A DNA stretch of 46,496 nt, from the IMG/VR virus record IMGVR_UViG_3300010391_000098, positions 1 through 46,496 of that record; one strand, 5' to 3'. The notes beneath the pieces are model-generated. The model was given only the letters and a program-made list of their open reading frames with translations, did no database searches and was not told the origin of the DNA. Positions 13,203 through 42,781 of this stretch are shown in pieces (the stretch's first letter is position 1; each line of letters starts with the position of its first letter). The DNA comes from a virus. The position numbers and the translations under genes were made by a program.

Positions 13203-13205
13203 AAA

Positions 13206-19214: not shown

Positions 19215-20062
19215 CAGAAGCCTCCTCTATATAGATTATAAACAGAAGGATCATAATTCAAGCGATAACCACCTGATGGACCTAAACCAGTCTGCTGTGA
19301 TGGGCCAAGATCCATCGAAAGTGGCTGCTGTTGTCTATTTTGTCCTAAGTTATATTGAAATTGACTGGGTATTTGCCCCTGTCCTAGAGATTGTCCGGCT
19401 GCTGCTCCAGAGAGCGCTCCAGTCAAGCTACCACCTCCAGAAGCGCCTAAATATCCTCCTAAAGCCGTAAGTCCTAATCCAACGCCGCTACGAACCCCTC
19501 CAAGTATTCTATTAAATTCTTCAATATCAGCTTCCTGTGAAGCTCCTTGTTCTTCTAGTATAGCCTGAAAGCGTTGATCTTCTGTAGCTATATCTGTTTG
19601 CCCTATCCCTAAAAGAGCAGCTAATAAGCTTTGCTTTCTTCTAGATTCCGCTTGGGATGTTTGCGAAACGGCTGTTCCTATATCAGAGGCATACTCTCTA
19701 GCTAGATTCCGTCCTGTGAGAGTAGCTGCACCACTCTGTGAAAGTCCCCGCTTAACAAGAGATGCTCTCCTTCCTTGCTCTGTCTCTCTCAGAGAGCTAG
19801 CTAGAGTGTCGAGAAGCCCGGCTTCTCGTACATTCGTAAGATCCCCCTTCCCAGATAATTGGGTTAATATAGAGAGAAGAGCCCTATCCCGCAATGGGCC
19901 GTATTGAAGTCTCTCAACAGGCCCGGTATCTTCCCCGCTAAATGTAAAGAACTTAGGACCATGCTTTAAGAGGGTAGGTATCCGGAAAGGAGTAAATTCC
20001 CTAGTTGGATAATCAGGCTGACCAGACAATAATCTTCGTATTTCTTCTAGATTATCAGGCAT
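19214..20062 (-). CDS. Putative virion protein, Gly/Gln-rich C-terminus (282 aa)
   Basis: ATG at 20062 follows GGAG with nine-base spacing and gives MPDNLEEIRRLLSG; a TTG five codons upstream is less likely. Residues 60-190 form helices with many Arg and Glu, and residues 195-230 are a Gly/Ala-rich hydrophobic stretch (GVGLGLTALGGYLG) that could insert in a membrane. The tail is Gln/Gly/Tyr rich. With the two genes downstream it may make up the ejection proteins. Not recognised by family. Confidence 0.55.
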   Translation of the reverse strand: MPDNLEEIRRLLSGQPDYPTREFTPFRIPTLLKHGPKFFTFSGEDTGPVERLQYGPLRDRALLSILTQLSGKGDLTNVREAGLLDTLASSLRETEQGRRASLVKRGLSQSGAATLTGRNLAREYASDIGTAVSQTSQAESRRKQSLLAALLGIGQTDIATEDQRFQAILEEQGASQEADIEEFNRILGGVRSGVGLGLTALGGYLGASGGGSLTGALSGAAAGQSLGQGQIPSQFQYNLGQNRQQQPLSMDLGPSQQTGLGPSGGYRLNYDPSVYNLYRGGF

Positions 20063-22196
20063 CTCTAGTTTCTCCAATCTCCGCGTAGTCTATACGAAGA
20101 TTTGACAGTATAGATGGATCAGCTAATAAATCAGTAGTCTCCGCAGAGAACCGAATCTTGATCCGGCGGCCTATCTTTCCAAGGAAGTTATCCATCCGTA
20201 ACGGAAACGGCCCGAAGTGTCCATCTGCATCACTATCTACCCAATACTCATACACCAAATCCCTAGGAGGATTCTCCACTTTCAACTTTCTAAATACCTT
20301 CCGCATAGCATTCCCATTACTCTCGGAGGGAATGAACTGCGTCTCAGCTAACGCTTCACAGAATCGAGCGGAGAAGAACAATCGCCAGACGCGGGACATA
20401 CTCGCAAGTACGATGAAACGTTCCCCACCGGGCAACTCTACTTCCTCCATAACATTCATTTCTTGAAAATCTTGAAGCTGCGCATCCTCCGTAGGAGGAA
20501 TAAAAAACAATGAAAATGGCGATTCTTGAGATACATCCATCATCAAGAAGACGAAGGGTTTAAGAAATTCCTCTCTCGGATTCGGATATGCCATAACTAC
20601 AAGTCCTCTTCTAGAGTCTGAAGACATTAGGCTCTTAGCAGAGAGACTAGGATTATTCACAAGCTCGTCAATGAATGGCTTAATTGTCTTCCCGTAGAAA
20701 GATGGATTATCCGCTGCCCATTGCATAATCCCTTGATGAGATAGAAATAACAGAATGCCTTGTATCTTAGCAATTCCCTTCCTGCTTAGAAAGCCCACCT
20801 GTGGATCAATAGGTGACATAACGAAGTCTGTAAAGTCCGTTCCTATGATCCTATGCGTACTGTACCGTTTTCCAATAATAAGTTGCTGAAATTGTCCTTC
20901 AAGAGTAATTATTTCATCATAATTATCAGCTGGAATATCGAAGAAGTTATCTACTGGATACTGTATAAAGTTTTCAATTTTTGAGAATATAAGCTTATAG
21001 GGATGCTGATTATCCACTAACCAGAGTCGATTCTGATAAACAGCTCCCCAATTGCCAATTGTAGGTGGATCATTCTCACCAGGCAATGGTGATGGATCTA
21101 CTAAGAGAAAATCCTGCCTAGGGAATCTAGACCCAACCCCTAAACCGAACGGATTTGGATAGAAGAAAAATGGCCTAGTAGAACTAAGCACTAATCCAGG
21201 TAATGCGCCAGGAGCAGTCGGATCGCTTATACCATCCCATACTATAGTATCAAGTGGAAGTAATGGAAATGCTCCGTCATCATCTGCTTCAGTAAATGGC
21301 GGTCCTCCACCTGGACCTGCTCCTACAACTGTATTTTTTACTAGAAAGAATTCCTCAGACCCATCTCTAGTAACCCATAACCTTCCATGCGTATAACCTC
21401 CAACCGCGTCTGCAGAACGTTGTATGATCCAAAGTAGTACAGTCGTTATATAAGGAAAATCTGGCGGCGGCTGTAACGGACTTACATTAGGAGTAATCCC
21501 AGATGATAATTCTCCACTAAGACCTATTAAGGGCGCATCATCTGGACTTGGAGAGGAATCCGTTTTCGTGATGGGATTCCAGAAAGTTAATCTATACTTT
21601 CTGGCAATATTAACTATAATTCCTTTAGTTTCATCAGAACTACAGCCTAGAGCAGTAACTATCAACGATCTATTTGGGCCAGGAGTACCTACATTAGTAG
21701 GAGAATTTAAACCATCCCATTGGTACGGTCTATTGTTAGCCGCTGTGATAATAAGATAGTTAATCACGAGTGGAGTTCCACCTATTGGATTAGTATAAAA
21801 TCCAGGCATGACTGCCATGAATGTAGCTCCAAAAGGATCTCCACCCGGCGATGGATTAAAAACCTCGTCTATTGGAAAAGAAGCTAAAGGTGGCCCACCA
21901 TTTATAAGATCCCAAAGCTTCGGCGGCTCTGGCGGGAAGCGCCTTTCCAGACCGACGAGAATCGGCGGATCATCTGGCGTTCTTCTATATACCTTAACCG
22001 CTACTATTCCTCCTGGATACTCACGATCGGCAAGAAGCTCCGTTAAGCCACGCACGCGCCGGATAGAGCCAGATACGATCTGATCAAACCCCTCCAGACG
22101 AGACCAGGACTTCTCATCCCTGAATAATTCATTAACCTCTACTTCAAGTCCTCGGAAGTCTTTAACTTCTAGGGACTTCTGTTCCGATCTAATCAT
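20055..22196 (-). CDS. Tail stabilization/hub-like beta-rich protein (713 aa)
   Basis: An all-beta protein with repeated blade-like segments: FWNPITK, LWVTRDG, WGAVYQNRLWLVDN, FSKIENFIQY, EGQFQQLIIGKRYSTHRI, GILLFLSHQGIMQWAADN, RLFFSARF. The sequence YQNRLWLVDNQHPYKLIFS and its surroundings resemble podovirus tail accessory proteins of the P22 gp10 class, which close the portal after packaging. It is preceded by a small virion protein and followed by internal proteins. ATG overlaps the upstream stop. Moderate confidence. Confidence 0.6.
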   Translation of the reverse strand: MIRSEQKSLEVKDFRGLEVEVNELFRDEKSWSRLEGFDQIVSGSIRRVRGLTELLADREYPGGIVAVKVYRRTPDDPPILVGLERRFPPEPPKLWDLINGGPPLASFPIDEVFNPSPGGDPFGATFMAVMPGFYTNPIGGTPLVINYLIITAANNRPYQWDGLNSPTNVGTPGPNRSLIVTALGCSSDETKGIIVNIARKYRLTFWNPITKTDSSPSPDDAPLIGLSGELSSGITPNVSPLQPPPDFPYITTVLLWIIQRSADAVGGYTHGRLWVTRDGSEEFFLVKNTVVGAGPGGGPPFTEADDDGAFPLLPLDTIVWDGISDPTAPGALPGLVLSSTRPFFFYPNPFGLGVGSRFPRQDFLLVDPSPLPGENDPPTIGNWGAVYQNRLWLVDNQHPYKLIFSKIENFIQYPVDNFFDIPADNYDEIITLEGQFQQLIIGKRYSTHRIIGTDFTDFVMSPIDPQVGFLSRKGIAKIQGILLFLSHQGIMQWAADNPSFYGKTIKPFIDELVNNPSLSAKSLMSSDSRRGLVVMAYPNPREEFLKPFVFLMMDVSQESPFSLFFIPPTEDAQLQDFQEMNVMEEVELPGGERFIVLASMSRVWRLFFSARFCEALAETQFIPSESNGNAMRKVFRKLKVENPPRDLVYEYWVDSDADGHFGPFPLRMDNFLGKIGRRIKIRFSAETTDLLADPSILSNLRIDYAEIGETRDA

Positions 22197-22627: not shown

Positions 22628-25165
22628 CTACCGACCAACTGGTTCAAAGTAGTAAGGCATAGCTACACCCCTTTGAGTCGGCCGCGGCGTTGGTGTGAAT
22701 GTTACACATCTAAGCGCAGTAGTAGCAGTTGGATTAGGCGTCCAAGTAAATGTCGGTCCAGCGGTCGGCGGAGTCTCCTGCGCGTGCAGGAATCCAAATA
22801 ATGCGACCTCAACTCCTGCACCAAACACATTTGATGTAGGCATAGTAATCGACGTGTACTTCGGCTCGGTCGCCGGCTCGTCGTTCACTTTGAAAAACAC
22901 CTGCCTGGCATCAACGGTTGTCGTCTGGACATCAGGCCATTGGTCCCCTGTGGCCCATTTCTCTGGCCCATTCCACGGATTGCGAGGAGCTGAAGCATCC
23001 TGCACTAAGCCAGAGCACTGATTTACAATAAACGGCGGTATCGGATGGAGGAAGCTAATTGTGTTTTCGTTATCCCAGCCAAAAATTCCAAGATGCAGGG
23101 GCGGTATTGCATTCGGGTTACAGTCCGGAAAGCAACCTGGTTGCATCTGGCTTGCTCCGCCACTTTCGCCCAGCTTACAACCGAACAACCCATCAGAGAA
23201 CTTGCACGGCCACTCGCCTCCAGCAAAGTCATTGATGCAGCAATCGAATTCATCAATAGGCGTTGGAGGCGGTGGAGTCGGCGTTGCAGGCCCTGCCGTT
23301 GCTGTTGGTGTTCTTAGACCCTCACAACCGAGACATACGGGAGTCGGTGGGAATAAGAATCCGTTATCTGGAAACATGCCAGGTGTTGGCCACGGTCGCC
23401 AGAAGAAATCTCCGAAGTGACACTGATCTCCGTGAATGACACCAGGAAACGCAGCGCCGCATTGAAAGTCTGGCGGATCAATGGGAGCGCCCCAAAACAA
23501 GTGCTGAAATGTACAATCAGTAGGCAAACAATTCTCGCCATGGGTCACCATTCCATACACGACTGCGCCACCACTAGGATGCGTAATGGTAATCGTATCC
23601 GCTCCGGTTAGGGGCGTCATGGGATAATGGGTAGAGAAAAAAACACCATTCAAAACACAAATAGCGGCAATTGCAGGACCGCTTCTGGACTCCAAGCAGG
23701 TGTAGCTATTACCTTGCGTGTCACTCACACAGAGGACTGTCCCATTCGGATTAGCTTGCAGTGAACCATTGCCACAGTCAGTCAACCACGCATTCAAAGG
23801 ACCATTGCGAGCATACACCCCGAGGACCAGGGCCTGTCCGTTATTGACCGCCTGCTGGAAGGCAGTTGTCGTGTCGGCGCCAGTGATAGGACCGAAGCGC
23901 GAGACTTCTGTGACTATCCCGCAGGTCGGAGTGTGCGTAACAGTCGGCGTGCGTGTCGGTGTACCAGTGATCGTCGGTGTACCCGTGACCGTCCCGGTAT
24001 TAGTTGGTGTAAAAGTAGGTCCAATTGGAGTATTCGAAGGCGTTTCAGTTGGAGTTGGTGTAGCGGTTGGCGGTCCATCTTCAAACAGCCAATTCGTATT
24101 ACCACCACTATCCGTTCCATTTGCACCAGCGAAGCAGGGATTTATGCCAGATCCGGAGCATATATTGTTCTTTACATTCAAGAAATCAGTTTGGAGCAGC
24201 GTACCCATTTTTACGAATGTCATGGTGTAACCGCCACCACCAAAGTCTCTTAATGTAACGACGTTCCCAAATTCGCCATGTCCTATGAAATTTGTAATAA
24301 CGAACGTGGAACTTGGCACATATTCCAGAATCGAACCCTTGTTCAACTCCAATGTTCCAATTGTGGCAGAGCCAGCAAATGTTGAACTCACCTGTCTTTT
24401 TGCTCCATCCAACAAGTGAATAGTTCCATAGGTTCTATCTCTAAGCCCGAAACTCCCAGTCGTCCCAGAAAATGCCAACGTAGCTGTTGAGACGTTGGTT
24501 GTAGCACTCGAATTAAAGATCGACCAACTTCCAGCTAGTGTTACAATTGAGGTTATCGTGATAGTACCTGAATCTCCTACGGAAAGACTAAACCACGATC
24601 TATCAGCGTCAATCGTAAGAGAACCACCATTCAGGTCAACTGCCGCATTCATGTTCGGCGGCATAGGCCACGTCGCGGATGAGACTACTGGATTGTAATT
24701 TTCATCTAGCGCGAATTCGAGACTATCGAATACATGTCCTGCATAATCAAGACTAGGTGTCCCGCTCGCAGCGGCGAAGTTGGCGAAGAGGTTCGTCTGG
24801 TTCGTGATTGTCATTGAGGCAATAAAAGTAAGGTTTCTGTAAATGGTAAATGTGTTCTCAGCAGTTGCATCAAACTCTGGAGTGTTCGTCGCTCCTGTCC
24901 AATTCATGTCTCGGCACAGGGCCATACTAGAGCCAATCCCATCAGCTGTGACTATCTGACCAGCCCCGCTGAAACTGTTGGCGTCGAAGAAGCAATCATC
25001 TGATGATGTAGGTACTGATGCCCCGCCACCACCGCCGCTGGACGTAGACCAATGTGCAGTGTTCGTCCAATTTCCAGTGCCCCCAACCCAAAATCTACTC
25101 ACAGCAAAAACTCTTGGAGCTAGTGTAAGAAATAGAATAATAGCTATTAGTATAAATTTCTTCAT
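22628..25165 (-). CDS. Exported WVGGTGNW-type protein with Thr-Pro stalks (845 aa)
   Basis: Signal peptide: MKKF then a hydrophobic run ending in AVS around residue 21. Residues 22-365 form a beta-rich domain opening with FWVGGTGNWTNTAHWS and GASVPTSSDDCFFDANSF, a signature I recall in many phage and bacterial surface proteins. A Thr-Pro stalk (residues about 368-425) joins a second domain. A CC-type disulfide module follows (DCCINDF... ending CFPDC), and a shorter Thr-Pro stretch leads to the C-terminus. Many cysteines suggest an oxidising, extracytoplasmic location. ATG overlaps the upstream stop (TAATG). Confidence 0.75.
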   Translation of the reverse strand: MKKFILIAIILFLTLAPRVFAVSRFWVGGTGNWTNTAHWSTSSGGGGGASVPTSSDDCFFDANSFSGAGQIVTADGIGSSMALCRDMNWTGATNTPEFDATAENTFTIYRNLTFIASMTITNQTNLFANFAAASGTPSLDYAGHVFDSLEFALDENYNPVVSSATWPMPPNMNAAVDLNGGSLTIDADRSWFSLSVGDSGTITITSIVTLAGSWSIFNSSATTNVSTATLAFSGTTGSFGLRDRTYGTIHLLDGAKRQVSSTFAGSATIGTLELNKGSILEYVPSSTFVITNFIGHGEFGNVVTLRDFGGGGYTMTFVKMGTLLQTDFLNVKNNICSGSGINPCFAGANGTDSGGNTNWLFEDGPPTATPTPTETPSNTPIGPTFTPTNTGTVTGTPTITGTPTRTPTVTHTPTCGIVTEVSRFGPITGADTTTAFQQAVNNGQALVLGVYARNGPLNAWLTDCGNGSLQANPNGTVLCVSDTQGNSYTCLESRSGPAIAAICVLNGVFFSTHYPMTPLTGADTITITHPSGGAVVYGMVTHGENCLPTDCTFQHLFWGAPIDPPDFQCGAAFPGVIHGDQCHFGDFFWRPWPTPGMFPDNGFLFPPTPVCLGCEGLRTPTATAGPATPTPPPPTPIDEFDCCINDFAGGEWPCKFSDGLFGCKLGESGGASQMQPGCFPDCNPNAIPPLHLGIFGWDNENTISFLHPIPPFIVNQCSGLVQDASAPRNPWNGPEKWATGDQWPDVQTTTVDARQVFFKVNDEPATEPKYTSITMPTSNVFGAGVEVALFGFLHAQETPPTAGPTFTWTPNPTATTALRCVTFTPTPRPTQRGVAMPYYFEPVGR

Positions 25166-26433
25166 TATTCAACCGGAACGCACGCAGCATTCTCTACTCG
25201 AATGCATGGCGTTGGGCAAATACCAGCTAATGGAATCTGACAATTAGCTTGTGGACATTCACAACACATAGTTGCAAAGTTAGGTGTAGCTGTTCGAGTC
25301 CGCGTATTCGTCGGAGTCCGCGTAGGCGTAACCGTAGGTGTCTGCGTAGCTGTAGGCGTGAATGTCATTGTTCTAGTAGATGTCGGAGTTCGAATAGGCG
25401 TCTGCGTAGGAGAGGGTCGAGTACAGAATGGCGGCTCGCAGACAAAGCCGCCGGTGAATACCCAACCCTGCGGGCAGTGTCCCGTCTCATCTATATTCAT
25501 ACACTCCCCAGGCCCTTCGCAGCACCCTATCATTCCCGTGGGAGTAGGCGTCGGCGTATATGGAATACAAGATACTCCCTGACAAGTAGCACCCGGTACG
25601 AATGTACAGCCAGCTTCGCAGTTCTCGCCAATTACAATTGATATACAGCTAAGAAAGCAAGCGCAACAGCCATTTTGAAAGACTGGCGTAACCGTCGGAG
25701 TTCGCGTGGGCGTTCGCGTGGGCGTCCTCGTTGGTGTAATAGTAGGTGTAATAGTAGATGTATGCGTAATCGTAAATGTCGCAGTAGGAGCAGTCGGTGT
25801 CTCTGTAGGCGTTTCCGTCGGAGTAGGCGTCTCAACAACGGCCAACGCATCTTGTGTTACGCATACGGGATCTCCATCATTAAGCATACAGCCATCCGGG
25901 TTAACTGGAATTGCACAACCGGAGGCATCAAATTCAATATTACTAATCCCGTAATTTGCTGCTATGAAGTCAATCTTAGCTAACTGCGCGTCTGGAACGG
26001 AAAATGCTAAGCATGCTAAGGCGATACATATCTTCCCCGGTGTGGCAGTATTACAGAAGAATAGACAACCATTGGCAATTGCATCAGAGCCTTCAAAGCA
26101 ATTATCCAATGTAAGCATTGAGTCATTATATAGAATTCCAAACGTGAAGGCTGTAATTCCAGCAGTATTACTAATTAAGAGCTGACCATCTTCCATAGCG
26201 CCTATACTCTCGAATATAAGCGTGCTAGAAAGAGTGCCGTCAACTATCCTAACCACGCGCGGCGTGGGCGTACTTGTAGGAGTCCCAGTAGGAATCTCAG
26301 TCGGGGTATCCGTAGGAGTTTCTGTAGGAGTCCCAGTTGGAGTCTCCGTAGGCGTCTCCGTAGGCGTCTCCGTCTGCGCTACAGTTGTAGTTGCTAGAAG
26401 TAGGCTTAGGAGGAAAATAGCTAATTTCTTCAT
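25165..26433 (-). CDS. Exported cohesin-like protein with Thr-Pro linkers and three CC modules (422 aa)
   Basis: Signal peptide MKKLAIFLLSLLL with likely cleavage before QTETPT. A TP linker (20-60) leads to a domain of about 140 residues (ISNTAGITAFTFGILYNDS, then LAKIDFIAANYGISNIEF) whose strands resemble a cohesin fold, the partner of dockerins. Three disulfide-rich modules starting CCAC, CCEG and CCEC follow, separated by TP linkers. The layout recalls a small scaffoldin, but no dockerin is recognised in the window. Function inferred from architecture only. Confidence 0.75.
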   Translation of the reverse strand: MKKLAIFLLSLLLATTTVAQTETPTETPTETPTGTPTETPTDTPTEIPTGTPTSTPTPRVVRIVDGTLSSTLIFESIGAMEDGQLLISNTAGITAFTFGILYNDSMLTLDNCFEGSDAIANGCLFFCNTATPGKICIALACLAFSVPDAQLAKIDFIAANYGISNIEFDASGCAIPVNPDGCMLNDGDPVCVTQDALAVVETPTPTETPTETPTAPTATFTITHTSTITPTITPTRTPTRTPTRTPTVTPVFQNGCCACFLSCISIVIGENCEAGCTFVPGATCQGVSCIPYTPTPTPTGMIGCCEGPGECMNIDETGHCPQGWVFTGGFVCEPPFCTRPSPTQTPIRTPTSTRTMTFTPTATQTPTVTPTRTPTNTRTRTATPNFATMCCECPQANCQIPLAGICPTPCIRVENAACVPVE

Positions 26434-26597
26434 TACTTCTTCTGTTCAGTAGGAGTAGGTGTAGGATCAGCTGTCTCTTTCAAGCCGCCATCAACGCCTT
26501 CTAATACCTTAACTCCCTTATGTACATTCTTCTTCAAACCGTCGAACCAATCCGACACTATCAGAAGAATAAGTGCGCCCAAAATGAACTTCTTCAT
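26433..26597 (-). CDS. Small anchored protein with PTPTPT tail (54 aa)
   Basis: ATG overlaps the preceding stop (CGATGA) and the stop overlaps the next ATG (TAATG). It starts MKKFILGALILLIV, a membrane anchor or signal peptide without a clear cleavage site, then a charged helix, and ends DPTPTPTEQKK. It carries the same N-terminal style and TP motif as its larger neighbours and may be a minimal member of the cassette. Confidence 0.6.
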   Translation of the reverse strand: MKKFILGALILLIVSDWFDGLKKNVHKGVKVLEGVDGGLKETADPTPTPTEQKK

Positions 26598-27421
26598 CGT
26601 AACTTATACTCCAATCTCAAGTTTACAAACCCTGCGAATGAAGTGTATGTATCCACCGCCCTTCTTCCAATTAAGAATACAACATGATTAGAAGGATTCC
26701 ACATTCCTAATCCAGGAAGGGTAGTTCCGGGAATAGATACTAATGTACGCGTATTCGAGGTAACTGTTACAGTAGTATTGAAATTAAAGTCGTTAACTGG
26801 TGTACAAAAGGCTTCCCCTGTATTATAAGTACACCAAGACATCTTCCATCCAACAAACAAAGTGCCATTACCAACAGAAGCGGAGTGCCACTCGAATAGA
26901 ATATTATCTACATCAAGTCCATAGGATGGCATTGTCCAATCATAGTATATATCCCGTTCGTTTCTATCTGGATCTCCCCCAAATGATATAAGACATGGTG
27001 CCGGATCGCAGAATAATTGCGGCGGCACTGGATCACCTAAGGCGGCAGAGATAATTGCCATATCAGCCGTTCGATCAATAGAAATCGAAGCCGCGAGTGA
27101 ACCCACACTTACCGTTACATAGAATAGCTTCGTTAATCCTTCCCCCGAGACATTCACCAGATATGTACCCGGATCAGAGAAGAACTGCAGAATCCCCGCA
27201 GCGGGTACTACATGAAGTATATTAATGGCAGACTTCTCTTGGTAAACGTCGGCGGCTGCTCCACTTGGGAATGTTACAGTTACTTGCGCGTTGGGGATTG
27301 GCCGCCCCTGAAGACCCACAATCGTAACTGGATCACTAGGGAAGCACATATGCGCCGCGGCGCACACAGCGGCTTCTACCGGACTAGCAAATAAAAGTAA
27401 AAGAAGAATTAACGAAACCAT
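26594..27421 (-). CDS. Exported beta-rich protein, tail-fibre-like (275 aa)
   Basis: Excellent binding site AGGAGA before MVSLILLLLLFASPVEA, a signal peptide with AEA-type cleavage. An Ig/transthyretin-like region (residues 28-105: IPNAQVTVTFPSGAAADVY, GTYLVNVSGEGLTKLFYV) is followed by a beta domain of a kind common in phage tail fibres (NILFEWHSASVGNGTLFVGW, NPSNHVVFLIGRRAVDTYTS). A fibre-type domain behind a signal peptide is odd for a phage structural protein. Whether it is incorporated into virions or displayed on the host is unknown. Confidence 0.65.
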   Translation of the reverse strand: MVSLILLLLLFASPVEAAVCAAAHMCFPSDPVTIVGLQGRPIPNAQVTVTFPSGAAADVYQEKSAINILHVVPAAGILQFFSDPGTYLVNVSGEGLTKLFYVTVSVGSLAASISIDRTADMAIISAALGDPVPPQLFCDPAPCLISFGGDPDRNERDIYYDWTMPSYGLDVDNILFEWHSASVGNGTLFVGWKMSWCTYNTGEAFCTPVNDFNFNTTVTVTSNTRTLVSIPGTTLPGLGMWNPSNHVVFLIGRRAVDTYTSFAGFVNLRLEYKLR

Positions 27422-28209
27422 CTAGATCTCCTTCTCCTGAACGCAGAAAGCGGATGCCGAACAGTCATATACCGAAAAGGTGGAGAATCCGACTGCCTAG
27501 CCGCGATCACTAATCTATTCTCCCACGTTTGCAAATCCTGACGCATCTCTGTGGTATCTAAAAATGACTTCCGAGAGGCAAGCCACACGGCGGCCTCTAA
27601 CGTTATAATCTCCTGAAGTATCCGAGCATATTCCGTCTCAAGTACTTGATCATCCCTCTGAAGATGATTAACCCACTTTATGTACCTAAATAAGATACCC
27701 CCTGGATTATCCTGCAGTGGTGCTTCATTTAAGAAGATCAAATCAAGCTGCCTTCGGTAAGTAGGCGCTCCATTGTATTCGACAATAGCATCAAGAGATC
27801 CCTCATCCACTTGATGCATAAATATCCGCTTAGAGAAAGGTACTTGCGACTTCGGAATTCCCGGATCTTTCCACCAGCAGCCGCGTAGAAACGCCATATC
27901 ATCTGGCGTTGGATATTCCATAATATTCGCCACAACGTCCACAGTTTCCTCGTCGGCGAATGTATTCTCCGCATTAGCGATAAGATCCAGCGATCTAGCG
28001 GTAAGTGATTCATTTAGCTTCCTATCAATATCCTGTTTCGTAAACAATGGATCATGGGAAATTATCGAGTCCGTATCTGGATTCATTGGATCTACTAGAA
28101 GCTCGCTTCCCGTAGCTACATCTACACTAGAAGGATAAACCGCGGCGAGGTTCCGCCAAACAGCGAGCCGCATTTCCTTTAAATTTAATCGTCCTAAGAT
28201 ATCTGGCAT
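27409..28209 (-). CDS. Putative head-tail adaptor or tail protein (266 aa)
   Basis: ATG at 28209 follows AGGTTAATTAAA at good spacing; an ATG 33 bases upstream (28242) behind GGAG is the alternative and would add 11 residues. The protein is soluble, helical at both ends (LGRLNLKEMRLAVWRNLA; EYARILQEIITLEAAVWLA) and basic at the C-terminus (FRRRRSRWFR). This fits adaptor proteins that dock beneath the portal. It is the only gene without a signal peptide inside the exported block. Confidence 0.5.
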   Translation of the reverse strand: MPDILGRLNLKEMRLAVWRNLAAVYPSSVDVATGSELLVDPMNPDTDSIISHDPLFTKQDIDRKLNESLTARSLDLIANAENTFADEETVDVVANIMEYPTPDDMAFLRGCWWKDPGIPKSQVPFSKRIFMHQVDEGSLDAIVEYNGAPTYRRQLDLIFLNEAPLQDNPGGILFRYIKWVNHLQRDDQVLETEYARILQEIITLEAAVWLASRKSFLDTTEMRQDLQTWENRLVIAARQSDSPPFRYMTVRHPLSAFRRRRSRWFR

Positions 28210-28270
28210 TTTAATTAACCTATAAAGGGCCAGGCCCGGCATTGCTCCAATCCGTAATTATCAAATATAT

Positions 28271-28498
28271 TTATCTTGCTACACTCTGCATAGGAGTACA
28301 ATCCCACATTCCACATATCTGATGCGGAGCGTATGTTTGCTTCATTGAGCAACTTCCACCCTTCTCTATATTCGTACAAGTGTCCGGCGGCTCCGATTCG
28401 CAGCAACCATCGTACGGTACATATACGCCACTCTTAGCTCTAATTGATGCACATCCACTTATTGAAAGCGCCAACAATACGAGAACCAACTTCTTCAT
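28271..28498 (-). CDS. Small lipoprotein with CC disulfide module (75 aa)
   Basis: MKKLVLVLLALSISGC is a lipoprotein signal with lipobox ISGC at residues 13-16, so the mature protein would start with a lipid-modified Cys16. The mature part contains a CC module (CCESEPPDTC, then C, C, C) like those in three neighbouring proteins. GGAGGGGAAA precedes the ATG. A lipid-anchored phage protein in the late operon suggests action on the host envelope. Confidence 0.75.
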   Translation of the reverse strand: MKKLVLVLLALSISGCASIRAKSGVYVPYDGCCESEPPDTCTNIEKGGSCSMKQTYAPHQICGMWDCTPMQSVAR

Positions 28499-28507
28499 TT
28501 TCCCCTC

Positions 28508-30721
28508 CTATGGAATAGTCGTTATGTCCTTCACTGGGCCATTAAAGCATCTAAACGAGAGCGTATTTATATCATCTACCCGCTTTGTATAGATAATACA
28601 ACGGCACTTGTTCTCATCGCGTAGACCGCCATCTATGCATTCCTTCGCATATTGCGGCTGGAGATCAGAATCATAGATGTCTAGCTCTAGCTTATCTACA
28701 TGCGTCGCTTCTACATGAACAGGAGTCCTCGTCATAGTTCGTGTGGGCGTTATTGTAAGTGGCGGGAAGATAACTGGCGTCTTTGTTTGCGTTCTAGTCT
28801 TACTGGGTGTTACTGTTTGTGTACTAGTCGGTGATCTCGTAGATGTCTCAGTGGGCGTTGAACTTACTCCAGAGGTTGGCGTTTTAGTAGGTGTATCAGT
28901 GAGTGTACTCGTAGGCGTATTAGAAGACGTCTCTGTCCTGGTCTGGGTAGGCGTAGCTGTAGATGTTGGAGTTAAAGTCATAGTATGTGTAGGAGAATCG
29001 GTCGGCGTACTTGTAGATGTCTCGGTAGGTGTCTCTGTTGCTGTAGTAGTGGGCGTTTCCGTAGTTGTCTCAGTGGGCGTGCTACTAGCAGTTTCAGTTG
29101 GAGTTTCAGTAGGAGTCTCAGTAGGAGTCTCCGTTGGCGTACTGGTCGCCGTTTCAGTTGGCGTTTCAGTAAGTGTTTCAGTAGGCGTTTGAGTAGAGGT
29201 CCGTGTCGGGGTGCTGAATAAAATATCTATCTGAATCGGTCCTAATGTATTCGTAGGTGTTTCCGTCGGCGTCTGGGTCGGAGTCTCGGTCGGCGTCGGC
29301 GTACTGGTTGGCGTCTTGGTCGGCGTGCTGGTTGGCGTGCTGGTCGGCGTCTCCGTCGGCGTTTCAGTTGGCGTATTAGTGGCTGTTCTAGTAGACGTAT
29401 TAGTAGGAGATAACGTAGGCGTTTGCGTAGGTGAGCTAGTGGGGGTACTAAAGAGAATATCTATCTGAACTGGTCCAAGTGTGTTAGTTGGTGTATTCGT
29501 GGGTGTATATGTCGGCGTAGGTGTACGAGTGGGCGTATCAGTAGGCGTTCTAGTAGGTGTATAAGTTGGCGTATTTGTTGCAGTCTCCGTGGGCGTATTC
29601 GTTGGCGTGCTGAGTAACACATCAATTTGAACTGGTCCACGGGTGTTGGTGGCAGTGTGCGTAGATGTTGAGGTTGGAGTCGACGTTCTCGTTGGTGTAT
29701 CTGTAGGTGTCTGAGTCAGAGTTGGAGTCGACGTTGGCGTATCCGTGGGTATCAGTGTCGGCGTGTACGTTGAAAATAAGATATCCACTTGCACCGGACC
29801 TAACGTGTTGGTTGGTGTATTAGTAGGCGTTGGGGTTCTCGTTCTTGTCGGAGTAGGTGTTTCCGTTGGTGTAGCAGTACTAGTTGGCGTGTGCGTTATC
29901 GTTGGTGTTAATGTAGGCGTAGGCGTTAATGTAGACAAGAGTACATCTACTTGAACCGGGCCAAGCGCCCTCCAACATACCTGTAAATAGCTCGGATTGG
30001 CTTGCCCATAATGTTGGAAAGTTAGTAGATTAGATGCGGATGGAGCGCCTCCACTAATATGACTACGAAGTCGTGTATATCCAGTAGTACTAAGCTTGTT
30101 GAGATTTCGAAGAGGAAACACATTATAAGCATTGAGTGTAGTAGCGCTCAACAATGTTCCTATATGAGCATCCGTTCCAGCCGTTGCTGTATAATCTGCA
30201 CTGTCGCAGCTACCATCCCAATCAAACCAATCTTCCGTGAAACTCCGACCATCATTGTCTGTCTTAGAAGCTACATAGAGATTATGTGTAGCGCTAATAA
30301 TATCCTTTCCAGCTAAATCAGCTGTATAGTATTGTGTTAGTCCATTCCAAACTGAGTACAATAAAGCTACGTCTTTAGTTTTCTGCGCTCCAAGGACAAA
30401 ATCACAACCATCAAATGCTGGTGGATAACTAATGTCAATGTTTGCTTCAGTAGAGACTTCATCATTGCTACTAAGAGGAAAGTAATTCTGGCATCGAACA
30501 CTCGATATGTTGAAGTTAGGTGTAGGAGTAGTCGTCGGTGTCAATGTTGGTGTTTGTGTACGAGTGGGCGTCTGCGTGATAGTCGGAGTGGCTGTTGGCG
30601 CCATAGCATATGCGGGTTTAGTCAACATTTCTTCAAGCCCGCTCTTCTTCCCTCGCTGCCATAAATATATTTCCACAGAGAGCACTATTAGAGATAAGAT
30701 AATAAGTGCTGCCTGTCTCAT
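28508..30721 (-). CDS. Thr-Pro-stalk surface protein with 54-residue superrepeat and conserved C-terminal domain (737 aa)
   Basis: Residues 5-21 are a membrane anchor or signal. A short TP stretch (42-68) leads to a beta-type domain (70-255; [19 protein letters not shown] resembles fibre domains). Five copies of the box [11 protein letters not shown] start at 254, 308, 362, 416 and 494, within TPTxTPT runs, spaced exactly 54, 54, 54 and 78 residues. A TP stretch (505-665) leads to the C-terminal domain (670-737) shared with the proteins at 32208 and 33592, ending TTIP. The stalk may be extended and O-glycosylated, as TP linkers often are. Start lacks a clear binding site, so coupling is likely. 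Confidence 0.8.
29210..29965 (-). repeat. Superrepeat of [11 protein letters not shown] boxes within Thr-Pro codon repeat
   Basis: Five 36-bp boxes within TPTxTPT-coding sequence. The first four boxes are exactly 162 bp apart, the last 234 bp (162 plus 72). Nucleotide sequence between boxes is an ACN-CCN-ACN mini-satellite, prone to unequal recombination. Confidence 0.85.
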
Positions 30722-30727
30722 TTGTAG

Positions 30728-31423
30728 TCATTTAGTTCCAAAGACCAATTTTACATTTCCGCCTTCGAGCAGCACGGTTCGCGTAGAGGCAAAGACCTTG
30801 CTCAAGGCCCGTTCCATCTTTGCCCCTTCTTCATTATTCCCAAGATCGAGGACTACAGTAGAAGCAACCACTTTATTAAGATCAACAAAGAATTTACCAG
30901 TCAGGAATTCTTCTGGAATAGAGTCTTCAGCGTTATAAGCATCTACGATTACAAGATCGTAGACCTTAGTTGTATGCGCAATATAATGCGCTCCGTCATC
31001 AATAATTACATGAAGACGATCATCATTGGGAAGAGCGAACCATCGTTGCGCTGCCTTTACGACTACTGGATTTATCTCTATTGCATCAAATGTCTTAAGC
31101 TTTGGCGCATGTTTAAGCCAATCCTTCGGGATCATTCCAGAACCGAGCCCGAGCATTAAGACAGATTCGACATTCCCCCATTGTTTCTGTAGCTCATAAA
31201 CGTAAGGATGAAATCCCGCATTGGGATTCTGTGCAGACATTCGTCCTGCCCATTGCGTTCCAATCCAGAGACTTCTAATACCATCATCTTCAGTGACCTT
31301 TACTATGCCATAGGATGATGATTCCTCAAAGAGGGTAGTAGCATATGTAGACGAACTAAGGAGTAGTCCAAAAGACAGCCACACCCTCGATTTCCATAGC
31401 TGCCGCGTCATCATTGCTAACAT
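30728..31423 (-). CDS. Exported spermidine-synthase-like protein (231 aa)
   Basis: Methyltransferase-like Rossmann fold of the spermidine synthase group: GLGSG at 92-96, FDAIEINP with E116, DDGAHY at 142-147, and DLVIVDAYN with D161 at the catalytic gate position. At 231 residues it is shorter than usual (near 290) and lacks most of the N-terminal beta domain. The N-terminus (WKSRVWLSFGLLLSSSTYA) looks like a signal peptide, so it may act outside the cytoplasm, where its usual substrates are scarce. The 5' end overlaps the upstream gene by 68 bp; a GTG within it would give a shorter start. Confidence 0.75.
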   Translation of the reverse strand: MLAMMTRQLWKSRVWLSFGLLLSSSTYATTLFEESSSYGIVKVTEDDGIRSLWIGTQWAGRMSAQNPNAGFHPYVYELQKQWGNVESVLMLGLGSGMIPKDWLKHAPKLKTFDAIEINPVVVKAAQRWFALPNDDRLHVIIDDGAHYIAHTTKVYDLVIVDAYNAEDSIPEEFLTGKFFVDLNKVVASTVVLDLGNNEEGAKMERALSKVFASTRTVLLEGGNVKLVFGTK

Positions 31424-31949
31424 CAGCTTGATTTCCCCTCTCTACGAGAAGAATCCCGTGTCGATTTACACAAGCAGCTACAGAGGCGCAGTTTGCCGCC
31501 GCCCCCTGATCGTAAGCTACAAATGTCCCCGGTTCGATAGTAATATCCCTATTTGCGGTAGAGAGAACGGCGGCTGTCCCCACAGAGCCCGCCGTTGCAT
31601 CTTCGCCATGATTTGCGTCCCAATTATCTGCATCCGTCGTAACTTCAAACCTACATCTGGCACCTACATTATTAGTAGTCGTAGTTGAATTGATTCGTAC
31701 CGTAACGGAACAATCAAACGTTGTCGTAGACGCTGAATTAGGGAACCAGAACTCCGCGATTATCCCATTTCGGTTAGTCGCGTGCGTCGCGCAGCTCCAG
31801 AGAACCTTCGTTGGAGCAGTAGCGGTAGCAGCAATTGTGCAGGCAGTTGTCTTTGCGCCTATAAAGTAGGACGCTGGCATATACTGATAACCAGTTCCAG
31901 CGAATGCAGGCGCGGCAATCAGCGAAAGCAACAAAAATAATTTTTTCAT
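31356..31949 (-). CDS. Exported beta-sandwich protein (197 aa)
   Basis: ATG at 31949 follows GGGAGAGAG and gives MKKLFLLLSLIAAPAFAG, a textbook signal peptide; the longer frame upstream is rejected. The mature part is Thr/Ala/Asn-rich beta-strand (FDCSVTVRINSTTTTN, CRFEVTTDADNW, RHGILLVERG), resembling tips or knobs of phage fibres. Six cysteines fit disulfides. Its 3' end overlaps the spermidine-synthase-like gene. Confidence 0.7.
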   Translation of the reverse strand: MKKLFLLLSLIAAPAFAGTGYQYMPASYFIGAKTTACTIAATATAPTKVLWSCATHATNRNGIIAEFWFPNSASTTTFDCSVTVRINSTTTTNNVGARCRFEVTTDADNWDANHGEDATAGSVGTAAVLSTANRDITIEPGTFVAYDQGAAANCASVAACVNRHGILLVERGNQADVSNDDAAAMEIEGVAVFWTTP

Positions 31950-31957
31950 CTCTCTCC

Positions 31958-32242
31958 CTATGGTGTTGGCGTCACAGTAGGTGTAAGTGTTGGCGTTGGA
32001 ATTGGCCAATGCCCTCCACAACTACTTTCACAACTACCACCTTCAACGTACCATTTCCACGCGGCTGCGGTGCAAGCAAAGCACTCCGATAGTTGATTAT
32101 TTAAACAACGATCAGGAATTACTTGAGGCCGGGCAGCCTCAGGAAGCCCAAAATTATCGCACACACAGCAACCATTGCCTATTACCTCCACTGGCGAAAC
32201 AAGAAAGCTAAGGAATAACAGTAATCTGCTTAATCGCTCCAT
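31958..32242 (-). CDS. Small secreted CC-module protein ending in Thr-Pro tail (94 aa)
   Basis: The ATG lies inside the last codons of the upstream gene, in another frame. The protein starts [18 protein letters not shown], a signal peptide, then a Cys-rich module (GCCVCDN and onward to CESSC, about ten cysteines) and ends in a bare TP linker, [15 protein letters not shown] linker without a following domain suggests truncation or a fusion point for recombination. No binding site precedes it, so translation is probably coupled. Confidence 0.65.
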   Translation of the reverse strand: MERLSRLLLFLSFLVSPVEVIGNGCCVCDNFGLPEAARPQVIPDRCLNNQLSECFACTAAAWKWYVEGGSCESSCGGHWPIPTPTLTPTVTPTP

Positions 32243-33626
32243 CCGGACACCGTATATCTAGTGAATTAACTGTACTCTCACGCTTCATGAACAGTACGCA
32301 TCTACACTCATCTATCTCTTTTGTAGCATAATTCTCATGCATACAAAGATCAGCATTCTGTGGTACTTCCGCAACTCCGTCGTAGAGAGAAAGCTCCAGC
32401 GAATGAATATGCGAATGCTTTCCGCGCTTTCTAGCCGTTGGAGTCCTTGTAGCTGTTGCGGTTGGGGTTGAGGTTGGTACTACAAGTTCAAAGGCTCCAA
32501 TATCACAAGCGATAGACTTCGGCCGGCTAATGTCGCGTTGATCTATAGTCTCACAGGCCGGTGGAGTCCCGCTCGGCGTGGCAGGATTGCCTGAATTGTA
32601 CGCCGGGCTCATAGAATTGATAGCCATCGTCTGTGTGAAACCACCATTGTCGGCTAATGCTAAAAGAAGTGGATCAATATTCTGCTGATCGCCAGTTGAG
32701 GTAAAAGTACACGAAGTGCCAGTTTCTATATTATAGCCTGCGCTTACTAGTGTACCTTGATTGTTGCATGGACCAGACAAGATTGTATTACTAATCGTTG
32801 TAGTTCTGCCGCCACCAACTCTAAGTACGATTGGATTTCCAGCAAAGGGGCCAACTGTTACGTTATTCAAGATTGCCGCGCTACCGACGTCAGAGCCTAA
32901 ATTTATTACTTCAACAACTACATTATTGCCAGAAAAAGTGCAATTCTTAAGAGTAATAGATGCACTCCCAAATCCAACAGCAACATTACCTATATTAGAT
33001 GCAAACGTACTATTGGTAATTACCTCAGAATCGTAGGCACTACTATCAATAGCCTCTTTATTATTTGTAAAAGTTGAATCGGTTACAGTCAGATTTACAC
33101 CATTATTGATCCCAAGGCCCGCACTCCCTTTATTATTATCAAACAAGGTCCGATTAACAACTGTATCACCGCTGAAAGTACTTGAGTCAATAAGAATACC
33201 AGAAGCATTCAACGCTGCCGATCCGTGGACAATAGCCAAATCTTGTATGATAAAAGTACCAGATGGAATGTTTACCTTCAAGATACGTGTTATGTCATTG
33301 CCACTAACTACTGTATTAGAGCTACCAGCTCCGGTGATCGTGCAACTACTCAAGAGAAGCATTTCACCAAGACTCAATGTATATGTCCCAGCAGGTATAT
33401 TAATTATACTTCCGTCACAACATTGCACAGCTTGCCGTAGCGAGCAGGTTCCAACTGAGCACGTCCCATCAAGATCACTCACGGTGTTGACTGTATAGGG
33501 GCCAGTGATACAAGTCGGCGTAGTAGTAGGGGTCGACGTTTCCGTAGGAGTTGTAGTTTGTGCTTTAGCTACAACTCCTACGATCAGGAAGCTAAGGGAT
33601 AGTAGTGACTTCTTTAATAGTCCCAT
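32208..33626 (-). CDS. Exported CSLREA/beta-helix protein with conserved C-terminal domain (472 aa)
   Basis: Start chosen at 33626 for [16 protein letters not shown], a signal peptide with cleavage near AKAQ. After a short TP segment comes a CSLREA-like entry ([20 protein letters not shown]), then a right-handed beta-helix with parallel repeats ([49 protein letters not shown]) and a DIGAFEL end motif. A TP linker leads to the shared C-terminal domain ([10 protein letters not shown] ... CRCVLF ... [14 protein letters not shown]). The gene starts inside the end of the upstream gene. Beta-helix proteins typically bind or cleave polysaccharide; no catalytic residues were assigned. Confidence 0.8.
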
Positions 33627-34131
33627 CAGGACACCGCACATTCAACGAGATTACACCACCTTGCCGCTTCACGTAAAGAACACACCGACAAGCATCCGGT
33701 CTGAATTCTTTAGGAACATACGCCGGACTAGCTAGACAGATATCCGAGAACTGTGGAAGATCCGTATCTCCATCGTAGATTGAAAGCTCAAGAGCATGAA
33801 CATGGGAAGCTTGTCCCTTCGAGCCACGAGCTGGAGTGATCGTAACTGTCGGCGTAATCGAAGGAGTCTTTGTAATCGTTGGAGTCGGTGTATGCGTCCG
33901 CGTATTTGTCGCGGTAGCCGTAGCCGTCCTCGTCCTAGTAGCTGTTCGAGTAGGCGACTGGAAGACAGTAATCGTCGGTGTCTGAGTAGCTGTTGGGATA
34001 GTAGTAGGGGTATTTGTTAGTGTATGAGTTGGTGTACTAGTAGCCGGGACTGGTGTATCCGTAGGAGTCTCCGTCTGCGCCGCTGCCATTAAGGGAAAAA
34101 ATAAGACAAGTACAGATATGAACTTCTTCAT
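33592..34131 (-). CDS. Exported Thr-Pro stalk protein with conserved C-terminal domain (179 aa)
   Basis: Signal peptide [19 protein letters not shown], a TP and TAT-rich stalk (about residues 20-105) and the shared C-terminal domain ([12 protein letters not shown] ... [11 protein letters not shown] ... [14 protein letters not shown]). It has no other domain: simply signal, stalk and C-terminal domain, so it is the minimal form of the family. GGAGGTGGG lies upstream and ATG overlaps the preceding stop. First of the exported cassette genes in the direction of transcription. Confidence 0.75.
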
Positions 34132-34379
34132 GTGATTGCTTTCCCACCTCCGCTTGTAATATTAAACTCTTCTCTTCTAGCTACGAAATAATCCTTAGTT
34201 ACGAAGATCGCCAGAGCGACCAATTCCGGCGGCGCCCACTTATGCACTATATAGATAACAGTAAGCGAGAGTAGAATAATCAGTACCAAGCTAGCTCTAA
34301 TACTCCCCGGAGGAAGCCAAAATGGCTGATCATTCCGAAACCATCTACTCAATTCTACGTTCCCGGAACTATCAGGCAT
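34128..34379 (-). CDS. Small two-span membrane protein, holin-like (83 aa)
   Basis: [20 protein letters not shown] (residues 23-42) forms a first helix and [18 protein letters not shown] (50-67) a second, with charged ends. A Pro-Gly-Ser-x-Arg-Ala start of the helix is common in small phage membrane proteins. It may be a holin or an assembly factor for the exported proteins that follow. Overlaps the capsid-region gene upstream by 25 bp. Confidence 0.55.
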
Positions 34380-34656: not shown

Positions 34657-35562
34657 CTAAACCGGATTCGATCCAAGCGTACCGATCCAATGAGAGAAGC
34701 CAAATGAGAATGCCATTCGACTAATAACCCATTGGATGCTAGTCATCTCATCGAGCCAATCTCTATTTGAAAGTTGTTCTCGGTTAAATGACCGTAGCTT
34801 ATGCTGCGCCTTGTCCGAAATTACAAACCAGTCATTCACATCGGGTAGATAATCCCAAGTGAACGGCATTAAAGCATTTCGGACCACGTTATCGGCGCGA
34901 TTCGCCGTATCTGGCCGACCGGCACTCCTCAAGATTTCGAGGACATTATACTCTTCTTCCGGTGGATGAACAAGCCAGCGCGGCATTAACTTAACCCGAC
35001 GGACTCCAGTAGCATCAAAGAACCGTCGGAATTGCGTCAATGCGAGACGTACTGAGAGGACACTTACTGTAGCTACTGGAGCTAGAATATTATTCTGCGT
35101 CCCTATACCTTTCTCGTTTGGATGAACAGCAGAGAATAAAGGCTCTCCATCAGAGCCGTTCGCTACTGTAAAACCCTGCGCAAAGACATCTGCGTGGAGT
35201 ATCTCCTTCGTCTGCCGCGCTGAGATTCCCAAATCTCTAGCACGTTCTCGCCAAATGGCAGTCTTCGAATCCCGGCGCATTTGATGACTCGCCCCTACAG
35301 CAAGCGTATAATCATCATGCTGATATCGCTTTGCGAATCCAGGTGCGGGACCATCCTGGGCAACTTCTACATTCTCCGGCGTCTTCACGAAGAGACCAAG
35401 ACCCGCAACCGTCAAATCTTCTTCAAATGCAGCATCAGAACCCTCAACAGAAAAAATCTGTGAGTACTCCTCCGGAAACTCATTGTACCCTAGATAGATA
35501 ACCTTATTAATTCCCGGAAAGAGATGCCGCTGGAACTGCGCTCTTGTCATTACACTAGGCAT
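34657..35562 (-). CDS. Major capsid protein (301 aa)
   Basis: Features match HK97-fold-type major capsid proteins of this group: an N-terminal helix arm (MTRAQFQRHLFPGINKVIYLG), the block FTVANGSDGEPLFSAVHPNEKG, and later segments LMPRWLVHPPEEEYNVLEIL, WFVISDKAQHKLRSFNRE and WVISRMAFSFGFSHW. Preceded by scaffold and decoration genes. It would form the icosahedral shell. Assignment is by pattern and position. Confidence 0.8.
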   Translation of the reverse strand: MPSVMTRAQFQRHLFPGINKVIYLGYNEFPEEYSQIFSVEGSDAAFEEDLTVAGLGLFVKTPENVEVAQDGPAPGFAKRYQHDDYTLAVGASHQMRRDSKTAIWRERARDLGISARQTKEILHADVFAQGFTVANGSDGEPLFSAVHPNEKGIGTQNNILAPVATVSVLSVRLALTQFRRFFDATGVRRVKLMPRWLVHPPEEEYNVLEILRSAGRPDTANRADNVVRNALMPFTWDYLPDVNDWFVISDKAQHKLRSFNREQLSNRDWLDEMTSIQWVISRMAFSFGFSHWIGTLGSNPV

Positions 35563-41215: not shown

Positions 41216-42781
41216 TTATATGCTTATCCCCACCCCACCCCCAGCACGTAGGCCATGGTGGCGTTTCCAATCATCTGGTCTGCGATCAATTATCTTCGGT
41301 CCATGCTTGAGATCTGAGAATGTTGGCTCGGCTACGCACGTATATCGTACAATATCTGGGAAGTCCTTATTACGATCCTTCGTCTTCTCTTTTAGATCAC
41401 GATCCTTCCTATTATGGAAATCGTCCCACGAGTAGCGGAGCATTTGATGAATTGGGCCTCCTTTCCCTAGGCATGATCGAGAGAAGCGCATTCTCGGCTT
41501 CGACTCTGGATCAGTTGGATCATACTTAAGATACTCTCGAACGCATGAATGACCGAAGTGCACATCATCTACTCCTAGGTATACAGAGTACCCTTGCTCC
41601 TCGAACTCCATATCCCAAGATCGGCCATTTATTTGAATTGCGCGGCCCCGATTAGGGTCCATTAATGTCAAAACAGGCCGTCCCTGCGGGAACTCAGCTT
41701 CGTGTTTATCAAGCACTTTGAATATTTCCGAAGGAGCCCCCCTCACGGTTAGATAATGAAACCAGATTATCTCATCATCCGGCGTTACGATACCATACAT
41801 AACATAAACCGGCTTACGTTCATGGGGATCGACACCCATTATGACGGGCCATTCCTCTGGAATTTCTAGTAGATCCTCTATAAAGGGCTTCTCCGCCTTG
41901 AACTCAGGGTAGACTAGGCCAACTAAGGAAGCTGGCTTCCCTTGCTCTCGGACGGCCCGCTCTTGTTCATCAAGTGATGAGAGAAAAGCCATCTTCCCCT
42001 CTGGAGATAGCCACAAATTATCATGGATGGAACCTTCGAATATTTGAACATACACGTTCTCTTCTGCCTCGTCGTAGAGCCAGGCTTCTTTTATTAGTGT
42101 AGCTGTTATGATACAAGTACCATTGGATACGACCAAGCCGCGACGCATAGCTACGTAGACATCCCGCGGCGGCGGCTCATCGCACCATACGATATCCCAA
42201 TCTTTCCCCTCTGCCTTATCCGACCCTTGATCGTATGATCGGAAATGAATTAGGGAGCTATTAGATAGCTCCATCTCCGTGATGTGCCCCTGGGAATTCC
42301 GCCATTCTCGTTTGATCGAGCCTGAAGGGAACCATGATCGAATTGTGGGAATAGTTATCTCTTTATGAGAATCGAAGTCCTCTGCGAAGCACGCCCCCCT
42401 AGCGGGAACCGGGTAACTGAATGATCTAGATTCAAGTCCCCAAAGTGGCCGTCCAAGTAATCGTTCCCCGAAGCGTAAGGCGCCTGCTGTAGTCTTCCCG
42501 CCTTTATTACCTGCAAAGAAGAACAAGATTGTCTTCAACGGATCATCAAATTTAAGAAATGCTTCTTGCCCTCCAGGATTCGGGAGAAAGAAGCGAGCCG
42601 GGTCTATTTCAATGAGCCGCTTTATCTCTTCTCGTAGAGTGGCTAGTTTGATTAGCTCTTCTCTTAATAGAGAAGCTAAGTGATCCGTCGGCGGGCTTAG
42701 TCGTTTAAGCGTCTTCCTGAGAAAGTCCCTTGGAATCTTAGTTACGAACCTATTTGTGAACTGTCTACCCACGTGCTTCAT
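41216..42781 (-). CDS. Terminase large subunit (521 aa)
   Basis: Packaging ATPase and nuclease. Walker A variant FAGNKGGKTT at 89-98, Walker B with catalytic Glu in WDIVWCDEPPP near residue 195, coupling region TCIITATLIKEAW, and nuclease-domain strands beginning MGVDPHERKP near 316 with a second acidic site LTLMDPNRG. It cuts concatemers and drives DNA into the procapsid through the portal. Encoded after terminase small subunit and a holin-like gene. Confidence 0.92.
   Translation of the reverse strand: MKHVGRQFTNRFVTKIPRDFLRKTLKRLSPPTDHLASLLREELIKLATLREEIKRLIEIDPARFFLPNPGGQEAFLKFDDPLKTILFFFAGNKGGKTTAGALRFGERLLGRPLWGLESRSFSYPVPARGACFAEDFDSHKEITIPTIRSWFPSGSIKREWRNSQGHITEMELSNSSLIHFRSYDQGSDKAEGKDWDIVWCDEPPPRDVYVAMRRGLVVSNGTCIITATLIKEAWLYDEAEENVYVQIFEGSIHDNLWLSPEGKMAFLSSLDEQERAVREQGKPASLVGLVYPEFKAEKPFIEDLLEIPEEWPVIMGVDPHERKPVYVMYGIVTPDDEIIWFHYLTVRGAPSEIFKVLDKHEAEFPQGRPVLTLMDPNRGRAIQINGRSWDMEFEEQGYSVYLGVDDVHFGHSCVREYLKYDPTDPESKPRMRFSRSCLGKGGPIHQMLRYSWDDFHNRKDRDLKEKTKDRNKDFPDIVRYTCVAEPTFSDLKHGPKIIDRRPDDWKRHHGLRAGGGVGISI

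Follow-up and report, generated by a model that had tools for sequence, protein, structure and literature searches.

Phages of the LUZ24 type (Bruynoghevirus) carry terminase, portal, scaffold, capsid and fibre/tail genes in this order on one strand; LUZ24 itself encodes a collar-domain tail protein between the capsid and tail genes. Cor and Llp are phage exclusion lipoproteins with Sec signals that act outside the cytoplasm. The T4 antiholin RI is a phage protein with a cleavable signal peptide (PMC8385771), rumen phage genomes encode zero to two signal peptides each (PMC5723332), and the lack of signal peptides in phage proteins of diversity-generating retroelements (DGRs) has been taken as support for their phage origin (PMC6199706). 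Here we describe a gapless block of genes for predicted exported proteins, at 22628-34131 on the - strand of the 46,496-base IMG/VR virus record IMGVR_UViG_3300010391_000098 (the window, analysed at its full length, to which all coordinates refer unless a relative is named). The late genes of the window, also on the - strand, resemble those of LUZ24 in order, and its terminase, portal and capsid, recognised by PHROG and Pfam families, fit a LUZ24/SU10-like podovirus in both family and order. The block lies in the interval that holds the collar-domain protein gene in LUZ24.

Between the capsid and tail genes, 11 of 12 consecutive genes bear an export signal, the sole signal-free one (27409-28242) encoding a head-tail adaptor-like protein. 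Their sequences suggest that a group of uncultivated short-tailed phages may send cysteine-rich, sugar-binding-type adhesins out of the cytoplasm rather than onto the particle inside it. Tentatively, and at a little under even confidence, we read the block as encoding adhesins or fibre-type proteins that belong to the phage itself, are produced late, exported by Sec and probably docked on the tail at lysis. The reading draws on the signals, cysteine enrichment, threonine-proline (TP) stalks, a shared four-cysteine (4-Cys) domain, conservation across the family and position in the fibre slot.

Export signals and composition of the late genes

Export was called by a rule written for this analysis (n-region charge, hydrophobic core, AxA-type site or lipobox), which is not SignalP. 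Under this home-made rule 10 of the 32 late genes of the window were called as signal peptidase I (SPI) type or lipoprotein, with 26433 in addition as an anchor; all lie within the block, and none of the 21 other late genes was called. A signal peptide, lipobox or anchor had been proposed at eleven starts, and by the same rule each of the 11 has one (nine SPI-type calls, one lipobox and one anchor). One SPI-type protein, 28508, has charged residues behind its hydrophobic core and may be an uncleaved anchor. Among 98 annotated late genes of control phages (T7, LUZ24, Arthrobacter phage Jasmine and the environmental podoviruses ctEqG8 and ctKR88), the rule gave three weak calls.

All eleven genes of the original prediction were found as open reading frames with translations where it placed them on the - strand; the numbers it listed, used here as gene names, are gene 3' ends. 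The start of 31356 was corrected to an internal ATG (31949) in place of the TTG at 32021. Several start codons overlap the stop of the preceding gene, which supports those starts. Spacers within the block are -68 to +28, so that neighbouring genes overlap or abut, and with capsid and tail genes at its borders the block is, as first described, late-encoded and embedded without gaps in a phage structural operon. Contamination or a chimera, thought unlikely from the outset, is excluded by the same gene order in an independent 49-kb contig (G010).

Cysteine accounts for 3.2% of residues in the mature exported proteins against 0.36% in other late proteins (nine-fold, P = 2e-4); in G010 the values are 2.7% and 0.33% (eight-fold). 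This enrichment is a sign, independent of the signal rule, of folding in an oxidising compartment. The TP stalks and disulfide modules noted earlier are seen in the block proteins as TP stalks and CC-type cysteine modules.

Codon usage of the exported genes correlates with that of the structural genes (r = 0.96), which speaks against recent import of the block from a host. For the idea of host-derived display proteins, a recent host origin finds no support; one domain, choice-of-anchor Q, is of a type usual in surface proteins of bacteria. Duplication of a signal-peptide cassette, proposed from the recurrent start motif ATGAARAARTT, was rejected by pairwise DNA comparison of six starts: behind the motif 12 to 21 of 48 nucleotides were identical, against 15.1 +/- 3.4 in a random codon pool. 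MKK(F/L) is a common beginning of signal peptides.

Conservation and the fibre slot

Relatives were collected from IMG/VR by terminase, portal and capsid searches, with capsid identities from 67% downwards. The block proved to be present in other phages. G010 (49.4 kb) is syntenic, with capsid, a 34355 homologue, 4-Cys-domain proteins, adaptor, a 26594 homologue and three large exported proteins, and continues with homologues of 22193, of 20055, of 19214 and of the large internal protein. L088, L049 and G006 share the arrangement of the window behind the adaptor. In the capsid tree the window falls in a clade of eight (support 100/98), and in seven of these the capsid gene is followed by exported genes; the same holds for 9 of the 17 members of a second clade, three labels (L107, L127 and L164) having been set by eye. 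Among genes of at least 150 residues in 41 contigs, export was called for 32 of 218 that lie downstream of the capsid and for 3 of 217 that lie upstream of it (P = 1.5e-7, an approximate value since two contig pairs share sequence).

Two families tie the block together. That of 26594 is found in five genomes, always directly behind the adaptor, with a signal in 5/5 at about 33% identity and invariant cysteines C138/C143/C197/C206. This strict position and the retention of the signal at such identity were counted in favour of the adhesin reading. Elsewhere in IMG/VR a search for the family returned only the four known relatives, and a fold search with its model (predicted local distance difference test, pLDDT, 48) gave nothing usable. 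The 4-Cys C-terminal domain, of about 70 residues, has eight members in four genomes: the window has three, L088 and L094 have two apiece and G003 has one. It sits behind TP stalks or alone, with C26, C42, C44 and C61 invariant, and the three window proteins that share it differ in their heads. Neither family matched any PDB sequence.

Large stalked proteins carry CC-type cysteine modules; several also repeat a short hydrophobic motif along the stalk (PVQ(V/I)D(V/I)L(L/F)ST in 28508, FVAQVLLA in L088). There are about four to six copies in each of window 28508-30721, L088 10654-14136, L049 7990-9765 and G006 12477-16934; the motif is conserved within one protein, differs between phages and is vaguely like the first strand of the 4-Cys domain. 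Heads of known type are choice-of-anchor Q (32208), pectate-lyase (G002), Laminin_G_3 (L094, G010 and L133) and fn3 (L131).

The block occupies the fibre slot, between capsid and tail genes, in the window, G010, L088 and others. Signal-bearing proteins encoded 1-5 kb behind the capsid in distant relatives match PHROG tail fibre families (L133 and L104, E 5.4e-15 and 2.8e-4). One in the fibre slot of L131 matches a virion structural protein (E 6e-13), and one between portal and terminase in G002 has a weak tail spike match (E 9.7e-4) as well as its pectate-lyase domain; phrog_6320, 5073 and 2234 are among the families matched. The window block proteins themselves matched no PHROG fibre or spike family, so a fibre reading of this block is based on position and relatives. 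In neither the window nor syntenic G010 was a recognisable fibre gene without a signal seen. Taken together, the slot and the matches in relatives indicate that some of the proteins may be appendage proteins. This blurs the contrast first drawn between exported and virion proteins, while the late exported set itself stands.

In isolate phages no homologues were found for three window exported proteins or for two fibre fragments of relatives, nor for a third fragment under a low-complexity filter. In a search for the host, narrow patterns for terminase prophages or the 4-Cys domain found no relatives in 84,980 genomes. In L130 (from about 10531), L133 (12300) and L134 (from about 15387) a signal peptide is followed directly by a PHSVNTxxxGxGxPxxxLGSxGDFYxxTxxWxIYGPKAGTW-like segment, of a kind known from tail-fibre proteins; it had no isolate-phage match at the threshold used.

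Individual genes of the block

Table 1. Positions of the block genes, their domains and the bordering late genes in the window
Feature	Position	Strand	Basis
Terminase large subunit	41216..42781	-	phrog_2, E 1.5e-22
Portal protein	38004..40430	-	phrog_1216, E 1.7e-14; SU10_portal, E 2.8e-14
Major capsid protein, upstream border of block	34657..35562	-	phrog_371, E 1.4e-9
Predicted exported protein: signal peptide, TP stalk, C-terminal 4-Cys domain	33592..34131	-	export rule, sequence
C-terminal 4-Cys domain copy 1 (shared 'foot' domain)	33595..33813	-	8-member alignment
Predicted exported beta-helix/choice-of-anchor Q protein, TP linker, C-terminal 4-Cys domain	32208..33641	-	NF041518, Beta_helix
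C-terminal 4-Cys domain copy 2	32211..32423	-	4-Cys alignment
Predicted exported small Cys-rich protein: 8 Cys in 72 mature residues, TP repeats at end	31958..32242	-	export rule
Predicted exported protein of about 200 residues, start at internal ATG	31356..31949	-	export rule
Signal peptide and spermidine/polyamine aminopropyltransferase-like domain	30728..31423	-	PF01564, PRK04457
Anchored or exported protein: globular domain, long TP stalk, C-terminal 4-Cys domain	28508..30721	-	export rule
C-terminal 4-Cys domain copy 3	28511..28711	-	4-Cys alignment
TP stalk of 28508	28721..29938	-	short hydrophobic motif x5: four between stalk segments, first just before the stretch
Cys-rich lipoprotein, predicted lipobox MKKLVLVLLALSISG/C	28271..28498	-	export rule
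Signal-free protein resembling a head-tail adaptor (the virion anchor gene within the block)	27409..28242	-	homologues in 7 relatives
Predicted exported all-beta-type protein, 6 Cys, core block member directly behind adaptor	26594..27421	-	5-genome family
Membrane-anchored peptide of 54 residues, short TP tail	26433..26597	-	export rule
Predicted exported protein: TP stalks, one globular domain, three CC-type Cys modules, 29 Cys	25165..26433	-	export rule
Predicted exported protein of 845 residues: N-terminal WVGGTGNW domain, TP linkers, Cys module, C-terminal GVAMPYYF	22628..25165	-	export rule
Conserved tail protein without signal, downstream border of block (after 22193-22627)	20055..22196	-	homologues in G010, G002, G007, G011

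Homologues of 33592 occur in G003, with identical layout (E 4e-15), and in L088 and L094. The 32208 protein matches NF041518 at E 3.6e-19 (68.7 bits, above the curated cut-off of 25), Beta_helix at E 7.6e-5 and CSLREA weakly. A weak alignment points to a possible family of 31356 with L088, L049 and G006 proteins, for which BLAST was not significant. The 28508 protein matches proteins of G009 and G010, and the C-terminal end of 22628 resembles that of the L088 10654 protein (GVMPYYFG).

The 30728 protein exceeds the gathering score of PF01564 (34.2 bits against 22.9, E 2.3e-8) and falls short of the PRK04457 equivalog cut-off (84 bits against 304, E 6.5e-24). From its sequence (30728-31423) it appears to be a polyamine-enzyme-like protein with an export signal inside a phage late operon, and unlike its neighbours it has no cysteines. 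The 28271 protein (75 residues, lipobox SG/C) fits an o-spanin as a small outer-membrane lipoprotein; its match to the spanin family phrog_456 is weak (E 0.063) and covers the signal only, and no search was made for an i-spanin partner. The adaptor-like protein of the window had no significant Pfam match, and its homologues in relatives gave E 1e-4 to 2e-6 against the SU10-type adaptor, two of them matching SU10_adaptor at E about 1e-4, under the curated cut-off.

At L094 1344-2003 (G010) a single open frame combines a holin-like N-terminus with a signal-like segment, a TP stalk and the 4-Cys domain, as either a fusion or an internal start. L088 14140-15291 encodes a polytopic membrane protein inside the exported block, which has no family match and might modify stalks. 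Its likeness to GT-C proteins and a dockerin-like segment in L049 were considered; neither had a family match and neither is claimed. Elsewhere in the window, 11883-13202, at the end of the late operon, encodes an ATP-grasp protein (GARS_A, E 2.3e-10) kept in G002, G007 and G011, and at 7599-10061 a DNA polymerase A carries a fused domain of uracil-DNA-glycosylase type at its N-terminus (Pfam matches to UDG, exonuclease and polA).

Possible roles and known systems

If the proteins are adhesins of the particle, they would cross the inner membrane by the host Sec pathway and be cleaved by signal peptidase I, with 28271 lipidated. Disulfides would form in the periplasm, and the TP stalks would serve as spacers. 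At cell lysis the 4-Cys domain and the adaptor-coupled 26594 protein would probably dock the proteins onto the tail, and a receptor-binding set would thereby be added to virions outside the cytoplasm. The small lipoprotein and the membrane-anchored members could be lysis or anchoring parts of the same cassette. Several points weigh against this. Known short-tailed phages complete their tails in the cytoplasm, and export would take these proteins out of it. Cell-surface proteins that stay off the virion could likewise have choice-of-anchor Q, TP stalks and a lipobox, and the true receptor-binding protein could be encoded among the signal-free tail-region genes 17470, 18657, 19214 and 22193. In G007 the interval from capsid to adaptor is free of exported genes, the only one, a large one, lying in another part of the late operon, and a fold search with the 4-Cys domain (model pLDDT 68.7) found no match.

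It is a real possibility, though we would not expect it, that the proteins stay out of the virion altogether, being secreted or shown on the surface of the infected cell. They might coat or remodel the envelope of the host late in infection (masking receptors, excluding rivals, or sticking cells or debris together) or act in the medium as lectins or as polysaccharide-binding or -cleaving proteins. The lipobox and anchors, choice-of-anchor Q as a domain of bacterial surface proteins, the lectin-type domains of relatives, the many different heads on stalks and the signal on an aminopropyltransferase-like protein all suit such a role. It accounts less well for the fibre slot, for the tail-fibre, tail-spike and virion-protein matches of relatives, for the want of another recognisable fibre gene and for the strict tie between the 26594 family and the adaptor. 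An ordinary mix of lysis genes (a lipoprotein spanin, holin-like proteins) and accessory 'moron' genes, lying in the late operon by chance, is unlikely: 28271 has a lipobox, 30728 resembles a metabolic enzyme and the same interval of L094 holds lysozyme-like and holin-like genes (by eye, with no family match), but the block consists mostly of large, cysteine-rich, stalked proteins and conserved core families, lacks the foreign codon usage expected of recent morons and is kept as a unit in several relatives. Least probable of all is that the hydrophobic N-termini stay uncleaved on virion proteins as lipid-binding tags that associate particles with membranes or lipids. In an engineered T7, an Escherichia coli signal peptide added to the capsid protein by fusion does bind phospholipid to the virion (PMC5157022), and 28508 and 26433 are anchor-like, with charged segments behind the core; against this, most starts have a clear AxA site or the lipobox, and the cysteine enrichment points to a real stay in the periplasm.

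The wider form of the adhesin reading, in which a tailed-phage clade assembles its receptor-binding apparatus outside the cytoplasm from Sec-exported, disulfide-bonded, stalked proteins attached by the 4-Cys domain during or after lysis, is put forward as less likely than not. If true, tailed phages would have an assembly route so far not known from them, with disulfide-stabilised adhesins added in a second stage outside the cytoplasm. If the proteins stay off virions, such phages would, late in infection, put in place an entire layer of their own making, either on the surface or secreted. Signal peptides on fibre-type proteins have been taken as the mark of a non-virion gene (for example, PMC6199706), and with this assumption pipelines may discard or misread such genes.

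In the open literature, with subscription journals and preprints outside the search, no tailed phages were described with blocks of exported fibre-type proteins. Of the SU10 portal and adaptor families (PF23899 and PF24175), the portal is matched by the window directly and the adaptor only through homologues in relatives. LUZ24 differs from the window in that its late genes are without export signals under the same rule. The 32208 protein is akin to choice-of-anchor Q and CSLREA bacterial surface proteins, with, as read from the family name, a phage-type 4-Cys domain in place of the bacterial anchor. Fibre-like DGR targets with C-type lectin folds are likewise stalked or lectin-type recognition proteins; they are reported to be without signal peptides (PMC6199706), whereas the fibre-slot proteins of the window carry them. 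Cor, Llp, spanins and RI are likewise late or accessory phage proteins with Sec signals acting outside the cytoplasm, but these are single small proteins, whereas the window has 10 to 11 such genes in a row, including large modular candidate adhesins.

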